DNA of 64,000 bases from Nocardia sp. BSTN01 (GTDB lineage Bacteria; Actinomycetota; Actinomycetes; Mycobacteriales; Mycobacteriaceae). The notes beneath the pieces are model-generated. The model made no database searches. It was not told the origin of the DNA and worked only from the letters and a program-made list of their open reading frames with translations. Positions 17,383-48,525 of this stretch are shown here, in pieces. Each line of letters begins with the position of its first letter. Position 1 is the first letter of the stretch. The position numbers and the translations under genes were made by a program. Location of the stretch: positions 186,001 to 250,000 of the forward strand of contig NZ_JADKYP010000003.1 in the NCBI RefSeq assembly GCF_015354405.1. Reading direction: 5' to 3'.

Positions 17383-18051
17383 TCACTTCTTCTGGGCGCT
17401 CAGCTTGCGGTAGTCGAACACCGTGTCGATGATTCCGTAATCCTTGGCCTCGTCGGCGGTCAGGATCTTGTCACGATCGGTGTCCTTGCGGATGGTGTCG
17501 GCATCCTTACCGGTGTGGCGGGCCAGCGTGGTCTCCATCAACCGGCGCATGCGCTCGATCTCGGCGGCCTGGATCTCCAGATCGGAGACCTGGCCCTGGA
17601 TGCCACCCTCCAGCGACGGCTGGTGGATCAGCACGCGGGCGTTGGGCAGGCAGGCCCGCTTACCCGGGGTACCGGCTGCCAGCAGGACCGCCGCCGCGGA
17701 GGCCGCCTGGCCCAGGCAGACCGTCGCGACATCGGCACGCACGTACTGCATGGTGTCGTAGATGGCCATCAGCGAGGTGAAGGAACCACCGGGCGAGTTG
17801 ATGTACATGGTGATGTCGCGGTCGGGATCGAGCGACTCCAGCACCAGCAGCTGCGCCATGATGTCGTTGGCCGAGGCGTCGTCCACCTGCACGCCGAGGA
17901 AGATGATGCGCTCCTCGAACAGCTTGTTGTAGGGGTTGGACTCCTTGACGCCGAAGCTCGAGTGCTCGATGAACGACGGCAGGATGTACCGGGCCTGCGG
18001 GCTCGCCGGTGCGCTACCGGACAGGCCGGCACGCGGGTCGATCAGGGTCAT
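17383..18051 (-). CDS. clpP2: ATP-dependent Clp protease proteolytic subunit ClpP2
   Basis: Serine peptidase subunit of the essential mixed ClpP1P2 tetradecamer. The triad is intact: Ser118 in [13 protein letters not shown], His143 in LIHQPS, and Asp190 in KDTDRDK. The oxyanion motif NSPGG is present. The product has 222 residues, with an N-terminal extension that is normally processed. ATG 18051 is chosen (GGAG seven bases upstream) over the longer frame to 18123. It is cotranscribed with clpP1, 40 bases upstream. Confidence 0.96.
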
Positions 18052-18091
18052 CTTCGTCTCCAAAGTCGATGGGGGATGAGCGGTTTCGCGC

Positions 18092-18679
18092 TCAGTTACC
18101 GGCGCCGTTCGCCTGGCGGGCATTGGTGATCACGCGGTCGATGAAGCCGTACTCCAACGCCTGGTCAGCGGTGAACCAGCGGTCGCGGTCGGCGTCGGCG
18201 GTCACCTGTTCGATGGACTGTCCGGTGTGCTGCGCCTGCAGTTCGTTCAACTCCCGCTTGGTGTGGGCGAGCTGCTCGGCGTAGATCGAGATGTCGGCCG
18301 CGCTACCGCCGATACCGGCGGAGGGCTGGTGCATCATGATCCGGGTGTGCGGCAGCGCGAAGCGCTTGCCCTTGCTACCGGCGGTGAGCAGGAACTGACC
18401 CATCGAGGCCGCGAGGCCGAACGCGATGGTCGCGATATCACATTCGGCGTACTGCATGGTGTCGTAGATGGCCATGCCCGCGGTGACCGACCCACCGGGG
18501 GAGTTGATGTAGAGCGAGATGTCGCGGTTCGGGTCCTCGGCCGTGAGCAGCAGGATCTGCGCGCACAGCTTGTTGGCGATGTCGTCGTCGACCTGGGTGC
18601 CCAGGAAGATGATGCGGTCGCGGAGCAAACGCTCGTACACCGAATCACTGAGGTTGAGCCCAGCAGTCGCGGATGTCAT
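18092..18679 (-). CDS. clpP1: ATP-dependent Clp protease proteolytic subunit ClpP1
   Basis: Partner subunit of ClpP2 in the housekeeping protease. The triad is intact: Ser92 in [12 protein letters not shown], His117 in MMHQPS, and Asp162 in [13 protein letters not shown] forms the oxyanion hole. The product has 195 residues from ATG 18679. An alternative GTG at 18724, preceded by a GAGAGAGGGCAGG tract, would add 15 residues of propeptide. The order tig-clpP1-clpP2-clpX is canonical for actinobacteria. A ClgR-type motif lies upstream at 18914-18922. Confidence 0.95.
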
Positions 18680-18909: not shown

Positions 18910-18913
18910 CTTC

Positions 18914-18922
18914 GCTTACAGC
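18914..18922. promoter_or_regulatory. ClgR-type motif GCTTACAGC upstream of clpP1
   Basis: GCTTACAGC in the context TTCGCTTACAGCTGA matches the GCTNACAGC core found at the second clpP locus and at its regulator's promoter. It resembles the published ClgR core CGCYNANRGCG, with the last base of the right arm changed. ClgR-type proteins activate clpP1P2 in actinobacteria. Confidence 0.5.
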
Positions 18923-18944
18923 TGACTCATACGTCGCCGATGGG

Positions 18945-45803: not shown

Positions 45804-45841
45804 TCATGCTGCTGTGAGCAGATCTGCTGACAGCAGCATGA
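45804..45841. promoter_or_regulatory. 38-bp near-perfect palindrome with two ClgR/PopR-type sites
   Basis: Outer arms TCATGCTGCTGT (45804-45815) and ACAGCAGCATGA (45830-45841) are perfect inverted repeats, and the centre AGCAGATCTGCT (45817-45828) is itself a palindrome. Only the two G's between the blocks do not match. Two copies of GCTNACAGC lie inside: GCTCACAGC on the minus strand (45811-45819) and GCTGACAGC on the plus strand (45826-45834). Read differently, it is TCTGCT-N3-AGCAG repeated in mirror image, like the published PopR site TCTGCC-N3-GGCAGA. It lies 37 bases before the ClpP start. Confidence 0.75.
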
Positions 45842-45878
45842 CGGGCCCGTGCCGGGCCTGCTGGGGCACGGTGGGCGT

Positions 45879-46496
45879 ATGGCTCACGACGACAACAAGA
45901 TTCCGTTGTTCAGTTGGCGGTCGCGGGAGCAACTGCTCAGCCGCCGCATCCTCGTCCTCGACGGCGGGCTCGACGACGACAACGGCACCCTGCTCGCCAC
46001 CCAGATGCTCACCCTCGCGGCCGAGGATCCCGAGGCCGACATCTCGCTGTGGATTCACTCGCCGGGCGGGTCGGTCCCGTCGATGCTCGCGATTCGCGAC
46101 GTGATGCGGCTGGTGCCGTGCCGGGTGTCGACACTGGCGCTCGGATTGGCCTGCAGCGCAGGGCAATTCCTGCTCTCGGCCGGTACTCGCGGTCGGCGCT
46201 ACGCCCTGCCGCACGCCCGCATCCTCATGCATCAGGGGTCGGCGGGCATCGGCGGTAGCGCGGGCGAGGTGGAGGTGCAGGCCGACGATCTGCGCCACAC
46301 CGTGAACACCGTGCTCGGACTCATCGCCGAGGACACCGGGCAGCCGTTCGACCGCATCTACGAGGACTCGCTGCACGACCGCTGGTTCACCGCGACCGAG
46401 GCTCGGGAGTACGGCTTCATCGACCACATCGTCGACTCCTTCGACCAGGTCATCCCGCAACGCCAGCGCATCGGAATGTCGGCCGGGAAAGCATAG
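45879..46496 (+). CDS. Accessory ClpP-family peptidase, catalytically intact (ClpP3-like)
   Basis: A 205-residue ClpP paralogue, distinct from clpP1/clpP2 at 17-19 kb. The triad is present: Ser93 in GLACSAGQFLL, His118 in LMHQGS, Asp163 in YEDSLHDRW. The oxyanion loop HSPGG is also intact. It resembles ClpP1 more than ClpP2 (FGLAASMGQ versus LGLACSAGQ). ATG 45879 follows a weak GGTGGG. The second ClpP gene starts nine bases after its stop, so the two are an operon and probably form mixed rings, as the ClpP3/ClpP4 pair of Streptomyces does. Confidence 0.9.
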   Translation: MAHDDNKIPLFSWRSREQLLSRRILVLDGGLDDDNGTLLATQMLTLAAEDPEADISLWIHSPGGSVPSMLAIRDVMRLVPCRVSTLALGLACSAGQFLLSAGTRGRRYALPHARILMHQGSAGIGGSAGEVEVQADDLRHTVNTVLGLIAEDTGQPFDRIYEDSLHDRWFTATEAREYGFIDHIVDSFDQVIPQRQRIGMSAGKA

Positions 46497-46505
46497 GGGC
46501 ACATC

Positions 46506-47096
46506 ATGACCAGCTACACCATTCCCAATGTCATCGCGCAGCACCCGCGCGGCGAGCGGATCATGGACGTCTACTCGCATCTGCTCACCGAGCGGATCGT
46601 CTACCTCGGCACCCCGATCGATTCCGGGGTGGCGAATGCGCTGATCGCGCAGATGCTGCATCTGGACGCCGAGAGCGCGGGCCAGGAGATCAACCTCTAC
46701 ATCAACTGCGAGGGCGGCGATCTGTCGGCGATGCTGGCGATCTACGACACCATGCAGCACATCTCGTCGCCGGTGGCGACCACCTGCGTCGGCCAGGCCA
46801 TCGCGGTCGGGGCGGTGCTGCTGGCCGGCGGCGCCGCGGGCCGGCGGGCGATGCTGCCGCATGCGCGCGCCGTCCTGCATCAGCCGGCGACGCGCGGACA
46901 GGGCGCGATTCCTGATCTCATCATCCAGGCCGACGAACTGGTCCGCATGCGCGCCGAAATCGAGACGATCCTGTCCCGCCACACCGGTCAGGAAGTCGCG
47001 ACCCTACGGCACGACACCGATCGCGATCGGGTGTTCACCGCGCAGGCAGCGGTGGAATACGGGCTGGCCGACACCATCCTCGGCGCCCGCAGCTGA
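46506..47096 (+). CDS. Accessory ClpP-family protein without the catalytic serine (ClpP4/ClpR-like)
   Basis: A 196-residue ClpP-fold protein related to ClpP2 (CVGQAIAVGAVLLAGG versus [16 protein letters not shown]). At the nucleophile position the residue is Ala100, not Ser. The oxyanion loop NSPGG has become NCEGG (67-71). His125 and Asp170 remain. It is therefore unlikely to cut peptides and probably serves as a structural or regulatory subunit for the active paralogue just upstream, comparable to ClpR of cyanobacteria and plastids. The frame is intact, with normal length and codon use, so it is not a decaying gene. ATG 46506 follows GGGG. Confidence 0.88.
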   Translation: MTSYTIPNVIAQHPRGERIMDVYSHLLTERIVYLGTPIDSGVANALIAQMLHLDAESAGQEINLYINCEGGDLSAMLAIYDTMQHISSPVATTCVGQAIAVGAVLLAGGAAGRRAMLPHARAVLHQPATRGQGAIPDLIIQADELVRMRAEIETILSRHTGQEVATLRHDTDRDRVFTAQAAVEYGLADTILGARS

Positions 47097-47146
47097 AAGA
47101 AACCATCGGCTTGCCGGTGAAACCCTCGGCTGCCGCCGGCGCGCGC

Positions 47147-47632
47147 TCAGGCGGCGCGGGCGAACATGGTCGGCCCGGCGGGTGGGCGCGCGGCCAGCGG
47201 GCGTACCGGCGCGAGACGCGTGGCACGGAGCAGGTCGGTCGCGATCTCGGCGGTCAGTTCGCCCAAGCTGGTGCCGAGCGCCCCGGCCAGGGCGGCGATC
47301 ATCTCGCTCGAGGGCTCCTTGCGCCCCCGTTCGATCTCCGACAGATACTGCGGCGAAATCCCGGCTCGGCCCGCCGTTTCGGTCAGCGTCTCCCCGTGGT
47401 CGCGGCGCAGTTCGCGCAACCGCTCTCCGAGCACCTCACGCCACAGCGGTTCCCGGGCGGCGCGGGTTTCGCGAGGCCGATCGGGGCGCGAGGGCACCGA
47501 CCGCAGTACGTCTCGCTGCGGTCGAGGAGCGGATTCGGCCGCGGGGGCTGCCGCGCTGTCCGCACCGGTCGAGGACGCGGACTCGAGGTCGCGTCCGCCG
47601 GGGATCGAATGCAGTTGCGGGTACTCGGCCAT
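47147..47632 (-). CDS. XRE-family regulator of ClgR/PopR type
   Basis: A 161-residue protein. A low-complexity N-terminal 60 residues is followed by a helix-turn-helix domain (about 66-127). LTETAGRAGISPQYLSEIER with GRKEPSSEMIAAL is very close to ClgR/PopR, whose members read YLSEVERGRKEASSE. The last two residues are Ala-Ala, the feature that makes Streptomyces PopR and ClgR substrates of ClpP. It lies convergently just after the second clpP pair, the position of popR in Streptomyces. Its own promoter carries a perfect TACGCT-N3-AGCGTA box. It is probably an activator removed by ClpP. Confidence 0.88.
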   Translation of the reverse strand: MAEYPQLHSIPGGRDLESASSTGADSAAAPAAESAPRPQRDVLRSVPSRPDRPRETRAAREPLWREVLGERLRELRRDHGETLTETAGRAGISPQYLSEIERGRKEPSSEMIAALAGALGTSLGELTAEIATDLLRATRLAPVRPLAARPPAGPTMFARAA

Positions 47633-47638
47633 GCGGTG

Positions 47639-47644
47639 AGCCTA
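47639..47644 (-). promoter_or_regulatory. -10 element TAGGCT, probable leaderless promoter of the ClgR/PopR-type gene
   Basis: On the minus strand TAGGCT is followed by CACCGC and the ATG at 47632. The upstream box at 47674-47688 is centred about 49 bases before the start, a normal position for an activator. Confidence 0.55.
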
Positions 47645-47673
47645 CGGCCACCACCGCGGCGGGCGAGCGCGCT

Positions 47674-47688
47674 TACGCTCACAGCGTA
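47674..47688. promoter_or_regulatory. ClgR box in the regulator's own promoter
   Basis: TACGCT-CAC-AGCGTA is a perfect palindrome with six-base arms. Its core CGCTCACAGCG matches the C. glutamicum ClgR core CGCYNANRGCG at every position. The central nine bases GCTCACAGC are identical to one half of the palindrome upstream of the second clpP operon. Confidence 0.78.
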
Positions 47689-47792: not shown

Positions 47793-48263
47793 TCAGCTCG
47801 GGCGGCCGATCGCGGATGCCATCACACGGACGGCGGAGACGAGTCCGTCGACGAGCTGTCCCTGCCGCAGCGACGCGAGCGCCGCGGTGACACCGAGCTG
47901 GCAGACTCGGTCGTTCACGCGGTCGGCGACGTCGCGACCGGAACGAACCTCGACCGCCTTGTCGTTCGGCGAGACGGCGATGAGCACCGAACGTGCCGCC
48001 TCGGGAGTCGACGGGAACACCGCGTCGGCGCCGGCGGCGGCATCCGCGCCCAGATCGCCGATGTAGATGTTGAACCGGACCTTGGTGCTGCGAGTCGCCT
48101 CGGTGAGGGTGTTGTCCATCAGCAGCCGCTCACGGTCGTTGAACGGCGCTTCCTTGAACACATCACCGGCTTCGTGCACACCGGATACCCGCCCGCTGGG
48201 GGTGATGGCGTACCCGTGCGGCAGGGTGGACGGGTCCACCACAGGCCAATTAGAAGTTGCCAC
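47793..48263 (-). CDS. Conserved actinobacterial protein (DUF5130-like, position of Rv2468c)
   Basis: A 156-residue soluble protein. The middle has the layout of a TPM-type fold: TKVRFNIYIGDLGADAAAGA, then RSVLIAVSPNDKAVEVRSGR, and a C-terminal helix with DRVNDRVCQLGVTAALASLR. Family assignment to DUF5130 is from memory and tentative. No enzymatic motif is visible. GTG 48263 overlaps the end of the upstream small membrane gene by 14 bases, so they are cotranscribed. Confidence 0.7.
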   Translation of the reverse strand: MATSNWPVVDPSTLPHGYAITPSGRVSGVHEAGDVFKEAPFNDRERLLMDNTLTEATRSTKVRFNIYIGDLGADAAAGADAVFPSTPEAARSVLIAVSPNDKAVEVRSGRDVADRVNDRVCQLGVTAALASLRQGQLVDGLVSAVRVMASAIGRPS

Positions 48264-48525
48264 TTGCCCGGCCTCCGATCAGATCTGCCCCGGATTCGAT
48301 GGCCGCATGGTGTCCATGCGACGACTCAGCGACACTGTGACCGAATGCGGTCACCTCATCGGTCGCGCTCCACAGCACCGGCTCCGCGGTCCACTTCTTC
48401 CCGAGGTCGTAGTGGACCGGCTTCTCACCGGGCAGCGGTTTGCCGAGGAACGACAATCCGGCGATCACCGCGTAGATCACCAGCGGGATGCCGAGAAAGA
48501 TCAGCACTGTTTCGAGAATGCTCAC
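48250..48525 (-). CDS. Small single-helix membrane protein
   Basis: A 91-residue protein with one N-terminal transmembrane helix (about 3-27: LETVLIFLGIPLVIYAVIAG). A soluble tail follows with GEKPVHYDLGKKWTAEPVLW and a His-rich stretch FGHSVAESSHGHH. The pattern is conserved-looking in nocardiae and mycobacteria, but the function is unknown. The start is GTG 48525, with TACCGT six bases upstream, the leaderless pattern. It overlaps the DUF5130-like gene by 14 bases, suggesting a shared role at the membrane. Confidence 0.72.
   Translation of the reverse strand: MSILETVLIFLGIPLVIYAVIAGLSFLGKPLPGEKPVHYDLGKKWTAEPVLWSATDEVTAFGHSVAESSHGHHAAIESGADLIGGRASGNF

Follow-up and report, generated by a model that had tools for sequence, protein, structure and literature searches.

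In Nocardia sp. BSTN01 we analyzed a second Clp locus together with its regulator, on a stretch of 64,000 nucleotides (contig NZ_JADKYP010000003.1, positions 186,001 to 250,000; this whole stretch is the window, and coordinates count from its first letter). Two genes on the forward strand, a clpP3-like gene (45879..46496, 205 residues with the start used, Pfam CLP_protease 178.5 bits) and a clpP4-like gene (46506..47096, 196 residues, 217 bits to the same Pfam family), converge with popR on the reverse strand (47147..47632), which encodes a helix-turn-helix (HTH) activator of 161 residues. The main clpP1-clpP2 pair, encoding the protease that would destroy PopR, lies at 17383..18679 on the reverse strand. 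An HTH regulator beside a second clpP pair places the locus with the PopR/clpP3-clpP4 systems, and we consider it probable that the backup Clp switch of Streptomyces is present in this Nocardia, with two boxes activating clpP3-clpP4, ClgR as the probable supplier of popR, and hydrolase genes as wider targets; binding, activation and degradation in this system are what we infer from the anatomy set out below.

The translated regulator has both features that an earlier sequence-only reading of this DNA had named, the YLSEIERGRKE recognition region and a C-terminal Ala-Ala. Against the ClgR model (NCBIfam NF041677) it scored 65.5 bits, under the curated cut-off of 170; the best ClgR candidate of the genome, encoded on another contig, scored 143.9 bits, likewise under the cut-off, and four further ClgR-like HTH proteins matched the model besides these two. 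The recognition region of the ClgR candidate reads SLGYLSE, at a place where 20 aligned PopR proteins carry an invariant Gln (Q95), and its gene is followed by what we take to be pspA. To place the locus in its family we searched 201 genomes and collected the regions round 60 PopR-like matches, mostly the best-scoring, making 61 with the window; as this sample was picked by score, it is silent on the frequency of the locus. The clpP3 gene is convergent with the regulator in 56 of the 61 regions, an order also found in those Streptomyces-like loci that hold clpP. An alternative order was seen in locus L281 (genome G470), where a lone clpP-like gene lies downstream of a PopR-like gene, in the same orientation, and is itself preceded by two perfect PopR boxes that abut. 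PopR ends in Ala-Ala in 43 of 56 sequences, including the window (RAA). Eleven end in VS, AS or VG, an observation against the proposed switch, and two more (EA, PS) are cut frames. The eleven (L066-L069, L076, L081, L082, L089, L090, L052, L054) are natural variants suited to probing the degradation signal. Also at the locus, genes for a DUF5130 protein and a CtaJ-like cytochrome oxidase subunit adjoin popR (47793-48525).

The two ClpP proteins differ at their active sites. The Ser-His-Asp triad of ClpP3 is intact in the window and in all 56 aligned sequences, of which the window is one; the nucleophilic Ser of ClpP4 is lost in 49 of 57 sequences (Ala in 34, Gly in 15), the window protein having Ala (GQAIAVG). 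The SPGG loop of ClpP4 has likewise become CEGG in the window, and across 56 entries this loop reads CEGG in 30, SPGG in 13 and otherwise in six, with seven unread. ClpP4 is therefore probably a non-catalytic subunit with ClpP3 as its presumed catalytic partner; if ClpP4 is indeed dead, the backup protease should be only half-active. Cyanobacteria and chloroplasts have mixed ClpP/ClpR proteases made of one catalytic and one non-catalytic ClpP-like subunit, a likeness drawn here from residues alone, in Nocardia and its family. A literature search for inactive ClpP4 in actinobacteria returned, among the matches listed, a chloroplast review only.

Upstream of clpP3 lies the 38-bp inverted repeat that the sequence-only reading had described (45804-45841, with one mismatched pair when read by eye), and within it the operator, at 45808-45837, consists of two abutting 15-bp PopR boxes: a distal box GCTGCTGTGAGCAGA (45808..45822, forward strand), centered 64 nt before the clpP3 ATG, and a proximal box TCTGCTGACAGCAGC (45823..45837, forward strand), centered 49 nt before it. 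Each matches the TCTGCC-3N-GGCAGA type at 11 of 12 positions, and the 15-bp form CTGCTNNNAGCAG occurs at only four places in the 7.79-Mb genome, two of which are this operator. According to an excerpt of a review (PMC9775585), the PopR region of S. lividans reads TCTGCC-3N-GGCGAATCTGCC-3N-GGCAGA, i.e., two abutting 15-mers; as the layout at clpP3 is the one quoted there, the operator is of an already known type. At -48 to -50 of clpP3, 52 of 56 family relatives (top PopR matches, window included) have a box that matches at 10 or more of 12 positions, with a background of 6 in 5445; the second box, at -64 in the window, lies at -69 or -79 in some relatives. The tandem layout also precedes clpP3 in five of six Streptomyces-like loci (L270-273, L275, L278, their genus being our assignment), the sixth, L273, having a single box at threshold. 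No ATG or GTG was found 49 nt from the boxes in these Streptomyces-like loci, and the promoter layout there is therefore a different one.

In Nocardia and its relatives, the distances of the boxes and of a -10-like motif from the start codons suggest that the transcripts of clpP3 and popR are leaderless. At popR a putative -10 element, TAGGCT (47639..47644, reverse strand), fits a pattern shared by 44 of 48 box-bearing popR promoters, a TANNNT whose last base lies 6-9 nt upstream of the start codon (background 0.6%). At clpP3 the putative -10 is the weak CACGGT (45867..45872, forward strand); no TANNNT was found at this place in 54 clpP3 promoters, and 47 of the 54 have YANNNT (background 3.8%), which points to a promoter that may be too weak to fire without an activator.

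The popR promoter box TACGCTGTGAGCGTA (47674..47688, reverse strand) shares the geometry of the proximal clpP3 box, its center at 47681 lying 49 nt before the ATG at 47632, just as had been reported. Its flanks are of another type. The Corynebacterium ClgR consensus, given in an excerpt of PMC2905415 as WNNWMGCYNNNRGCGWWS, is matched at 17 of 18 positions (one mismatch, 5 of the 18 being N), so that the box scores 12 of 13 informative positions as a ClgR box vs. 8 of 12 as a PopR box; the two clpP3 boxes of the window reach only 8 of 13 informative ClgR positions. ClgR and PopR boxes have in common the core GCY-N3-RGC and differ outside it. Across the genus, CGC..GCG flanks were found at 25 of 31 popR boxes (window included); at clpP3 none of the 32 proximal boxes has them and two of the 32 distal ones do, and at clpP1 they are present at 20 of 23, in a set picked with GCG required on one side. 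The mean matches to the 13 ClgR positions are 11.23 at popR, 8.12 and 7.97 at the proximal and distal clpP3 boxes, and 11.87 at clpP1. From the sets concerned we dropped L254 and L261 (no popR), L256 (clpP3 upstream region missing) and L262, and the count of 25 holds with the L248 box, which from the correct start is also CGC..GCG. In the wider family, 50 of 55 relatives (window included; background 5 in 5500) have a box that matches at 10 or more of the 12 positions at -48 to -50 of popR, a count that is somewhat favored by our having chosen popR starts among in-frame ATGs. These comparisons suggest that the outer bases distinguish ClgR from PopR boxes and carry the specificity.

As the popR box is ClgR-type in this genome and in most of the genus, we prefer control of popR by ClgR, in a cascade from ClgR to popR to clpP3-clpP4 that fits this genome better than simple self-activation, its main rival. 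In the feedback loop proposed by the sequence-only reading, the PopR-type regulator beside clpP3-clpP4, the PopR boxes at clpP3 and the Ala-Ala end all stand; it is the regulator's activation of its own gene that fares poorly here, since the box in question fits ClgR better. We nevertheless regard it as possible, if the less probable case, that PopR activates its own gene through this box and tolerates the C/G flanks: the -49 geometry is that of clpP3, three popR boxes of the genus are PopR-type, and so are 19 of 41 outside the genus, with T/A flanks. Set against this, in this genome and in most of the genus it is the ClgR consensus that the popR box matches rather than the PopR box, and PopR-type flanks are retained at clpP3 in those genomes. 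Several further observations weigh against ClgR as the supplier of popR or limit how far it can be extended. Six of the 31 genus boxes are PopR-type or mixed, and outside the genus (n = 41) 19 are PopR-type, 14 mixed and only three ClgR-type, with no box at five, such that self-activation of popR seems likely there. PopR boxes with C/G at ±5 occur at clpP3 in other genera (e.g., TCCGCCCCAGGCGGA), and C/G flanks by themselves are therefore no bar to PopR at popR. No popR box was found in five of seven Streptomyces-like popR loci; in L273 the box lies ~55 nt before a candidate GTG, and L282, where no clpP stands beside the popR-like gene, has tandem boxes ~54 and ~69 nt upstream of such a codon. 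Finally, the genome's ClgR candidate (L207) ends in QAK instead of AA. Locus L282 (genome G374), in which clpP was not seen within 1.5 kb, may hold a PopR paralog. A further alternative, that the popR box is an autorepression site limiting PopR, seems to us improbable: a single palindrome near a promoter with a consensus -10 could exclude polymerase, but the box lies upstream of the -35 region, in the same position as the clpP3 box and that of a hydrolase gene described below, and PopR of Streptomyces is described, in the excerpts available, as an activator.

The nine-base sequence GCTNACAGC, which the sequence-only reading had taken as the shared operator core, occurs exactly where it was placed, at 45811-45819 (reverse strand) and 45826-45834 (forward) before clpP3 and at 47677-47685 (forward) before popR, and has a fourth copy in the window at 18914-18922. 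Each of the four thus precedes a clp gene or popR: clpP3 has two, popR and clpP1-clpP2 have one each. The 9-mer is therefore common to two regulons. The fourth copy bears out the expectation of a match before clpP1, and lies in a ClgR-type box, AGTCAGCTGTAAGCGAAG (18910..18927, reverse strand), centered about 240 nt before the clpP1 ATG (18679) and matching the ClgR consensus at 17 of 18 positions, again with 5 N. We read this copy, between tig and clpP1, as part of that box and dropped chance as its explanation because a similar box precedes clpP1 in all 23 genus loci: MGCYNNNRGCGAAG was found no more than 400 nt upstream of clpP1 in 23 of 23, with a background of 0 in 20,700 positions, and a 17/18 ClgR match is present at 20 of 23, a level that the background also reaches (14 in 20,700). 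This set comes from 26 genomes searched, L236 (58% identical) having been left out and two genomes lacking a clpP1-like match of that strength. The distance of the clpP1 box from the start varies between loci, which counts against our reading.

As a bare 9-mer, GCTNACAGC is found four times in the window vs. 1.49 expected, and 5 of 100 shuffles reach four; in the genome it occurs 120 times vs. 455 for the reversed control, with no enrichment. We accordingly rejected it as a genome-wide predictor, and the genome search that had been proposed as a check would mislead because ClgR and PopR boxes both have the 9-mer as their inner core and it shows no enrichment across the genome. The 15-bp boxes are far beyond chance; the bare 9-mer is a weak signal. 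That the boxes are chance palindromes of GC-rich DNA might be argued from the slight enrichment of GCTNACAGC in the window and its lack in the genome, yet conservation already contradicts it, with boxes at a fixed distance from clpP3 in 52 of 56 relatives and from popR in 50 of 55, where the backgrounds are near 0.1%, and we give it practically no credence. The ClgR regulon of Corynebacterium and Mycobacterium shares with this genome the box before clpP1-clpP2 (the PMC2905415 excerpt) and a homologous HTH; it differs in that PopR is a separate paralog with boxes that mostly have T/A at ±5. The distinction between the two box types would separate two nested regulons with a single core in common.

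Only two perfect PopR boxes exist in the genome, and one of these stands 49 nt before an unlinked gene encoding a metallo-beta-lactamase (MBL)-fold hydrolase. The protein matches Pfam Lactamase_B at 106 bits, and its metal ligands, HxHxDH and others (H67, H69, D71, H72, H153, D172 and H212), are invariant in 35 of 35 aligned sequences, as expected of the fold; a sequence search against solved structures found only distant MBL-fold enzymes (best E-value 2e-13), and the nearest named homologs are those of N. mikamii, N. nova, N. aobensis and N. cerradoensis. In a first set the box precedes the gene in eight of nine Nocardia homologs read. In a second set, fetched by protein similarity and hence independent of the box, a box at -47 to -51 matches at 10 or more of 12 positions in all 15 named Nocardia loci, in 30 of 35 from Streptomyces and in the one from Actinopolymorpha (background 24 in 30,000 positions); at 11 of 12 or better the counts are 14 of 15 Nocardia and 28 of 35 Streptomyces (background 0 in 36,000). 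Within 110 nt a box is present at 34 of the 35 Streptomyces homologs, 30 of them perfect, and a TANNNT -10 was found in all 43 MBL promoters examined out of 50 Nocardia and Streptomyces loci.

A second hydrolase emerged from scans for the perfect box. In eight Streptomyces-like genomes there were 16 sites, four at clpP3, three at one epimerase-family gene and one at another, two at a dienelactone hydrolase (DLH) gene, five without a convincing start and one not examined. A DLH match of at least 77% identity is present in 33 of 61 genomes of this Streptomyces-like genus, and 21 of 30 loci have a box that matches at 10 or more of the 12 positions, 16 of them perfect (background 2 in 27,000; the 30 include two from the genomes of discovery); 16 of the 21 boxed loci have an in-frame start 46-52 nt downstream. 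In 30 Nocardia genomes, the sites that we judged convincing, 47-51 nt before starts, were at clpP3 (G022), popR (G205), the MBL gene (G000, G202, G220, and by eye G213, at a contig end) and a second clpP pair (G207, G215). This last is a different Nocardia pair (L192, L176), about 46% and 59% identical to the ClpP3 and ClpP4 of the window, with the Ser of ClpP4 intact, a perfect PopR box at -49, and popR not seen in the stretch fetched. Two other perfect boxes from the scan lie 52 nt before a presumably flavin-monooxygenase-like gene with a ribosome-site-like stretch, a possible further target (L181, G213), and 51 nt from a hydrolase-like frame without a -10 (L186, G220). In the BSTN01 genome itself 62 sites have at most one mismatch; the 50 listed are the two clpP3 boxes and 48 loci examined, among which only the MBL gene was judged convincing, the rest (e.g., L137 and L394) being weak or chance. 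One copy of CTGCTNNNAGCAG (C180:1784) overlaps the start of a gene that we assume to be kgd-like and is thus probably coding, and for the perfect box at C151:15123 no start codon lies at a distance of 46-52 nt.

Since the box recurs at a closely similar distance, it appears very likely that PopR switches on the unlinked MBL gene and, in Streptomyces, the DLH gene, PopR being the presumed reader by analogy with the S. lividans site. A number of results tell against so wide a regulon. The perfect box is not enriched in the eight Streptomyces-like genomes (16 vs. 66 for the reversed control) or in the 30 Nocardia genomes (32 vs. 60), and the MBL gene was at none of the 16 Streptomyces-like sites. 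One of the nine Nocardia MBL homologs first read (L111, 59% identical) has no box, nor has any of 10 homologs from Nonomuraea, Kribbella and Streptosporangium or any of 19 more distant MBL loci; the MBL gene is moreover accessory, with close homologs in about 10 of 79 Nocardia genomes, and at 9 of the 30 DLH genes fewer than 10 of the 12 positions match. Another ClgR/PopR paralog might read these boxes in place of PopR, for which there are candidates in the four additional ClgR-model matches of the genome and in the PopR-like gene of Streptomyces-like locus L282 with its tandem boxes; we think this unlikely, as the MBL and DLH boxes are perfect or near-perfect matches to the S. lividans PopR site, with the geometry and -10 of the popR promoters. 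In the open-license literature searched, PopR was linked to one operon only, and no title or abstract among the matches listed connects PopR to MBL or DLH genes, or ClgR to popR.

Taking PopR as activator of clpP3-clpP4 and ClgR as the probable supplier of popR, the switch may be pictured as follows. Excerpts of two papers (PMC9765437, PMC12607617) report that ClpP1P2 degrades PopR in Streptomyces and describe activation of clpP3 there. Working ClpP1P2 would here likewise destroy PopR by way of its Ala-Ala tail, and failure of ClpP1P2 would let PopR accumulate. Two PopR dimers could then occupy both boxes, at -64 and -49, of the presumably leaderless clpP3 promoter, whose -10 may be too weak by itself, and turn on ClpP3P4. 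The popR promoter, with its good -10 and ClgR-type box at -49, would probably be served by ClgR, which also has a box before clpP1-clpP2, and proteolysis would decide whether PopR persists. With the S. lividans system this arrangement shares the Ala-Ala activator, the clpP3-clpP4 pair, the tandem abutting 15-bp boxes and the convergent order found in the Streptomyces-like loci fetched; it differs in where the boxes lie relative to the apparently leaderless start (-64 and -49), in the ClgR-type box of popR itself, in a ClpP4 without catalytic Ser, and in the hydrolase genes that share the box.

Expression of ClpP3P4 lets spontaneous Streptomyces clpP1 mutants survive ADEP antibiotics (the PMC12607617 excerpt). 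We speculate, as a rather long shot, that PopR heads a ClpP-failure regulon, in which inhibition of ClpP1P2 would allow PopR to survive and to bring on a spare ClpP core, of one catalytic and one dead subunit, together with MBL, DLH and epimerase- or reductase-like enzymes that destroy the inhibitor, maybe a lactone or another electrophile; if this were true, the cell would sense an inhibitor through the very protease that it blocks. A conserved wider regulon that includes hydrolases would tell the purpose of the switch, and could point to natural inhibitors of ClpP.

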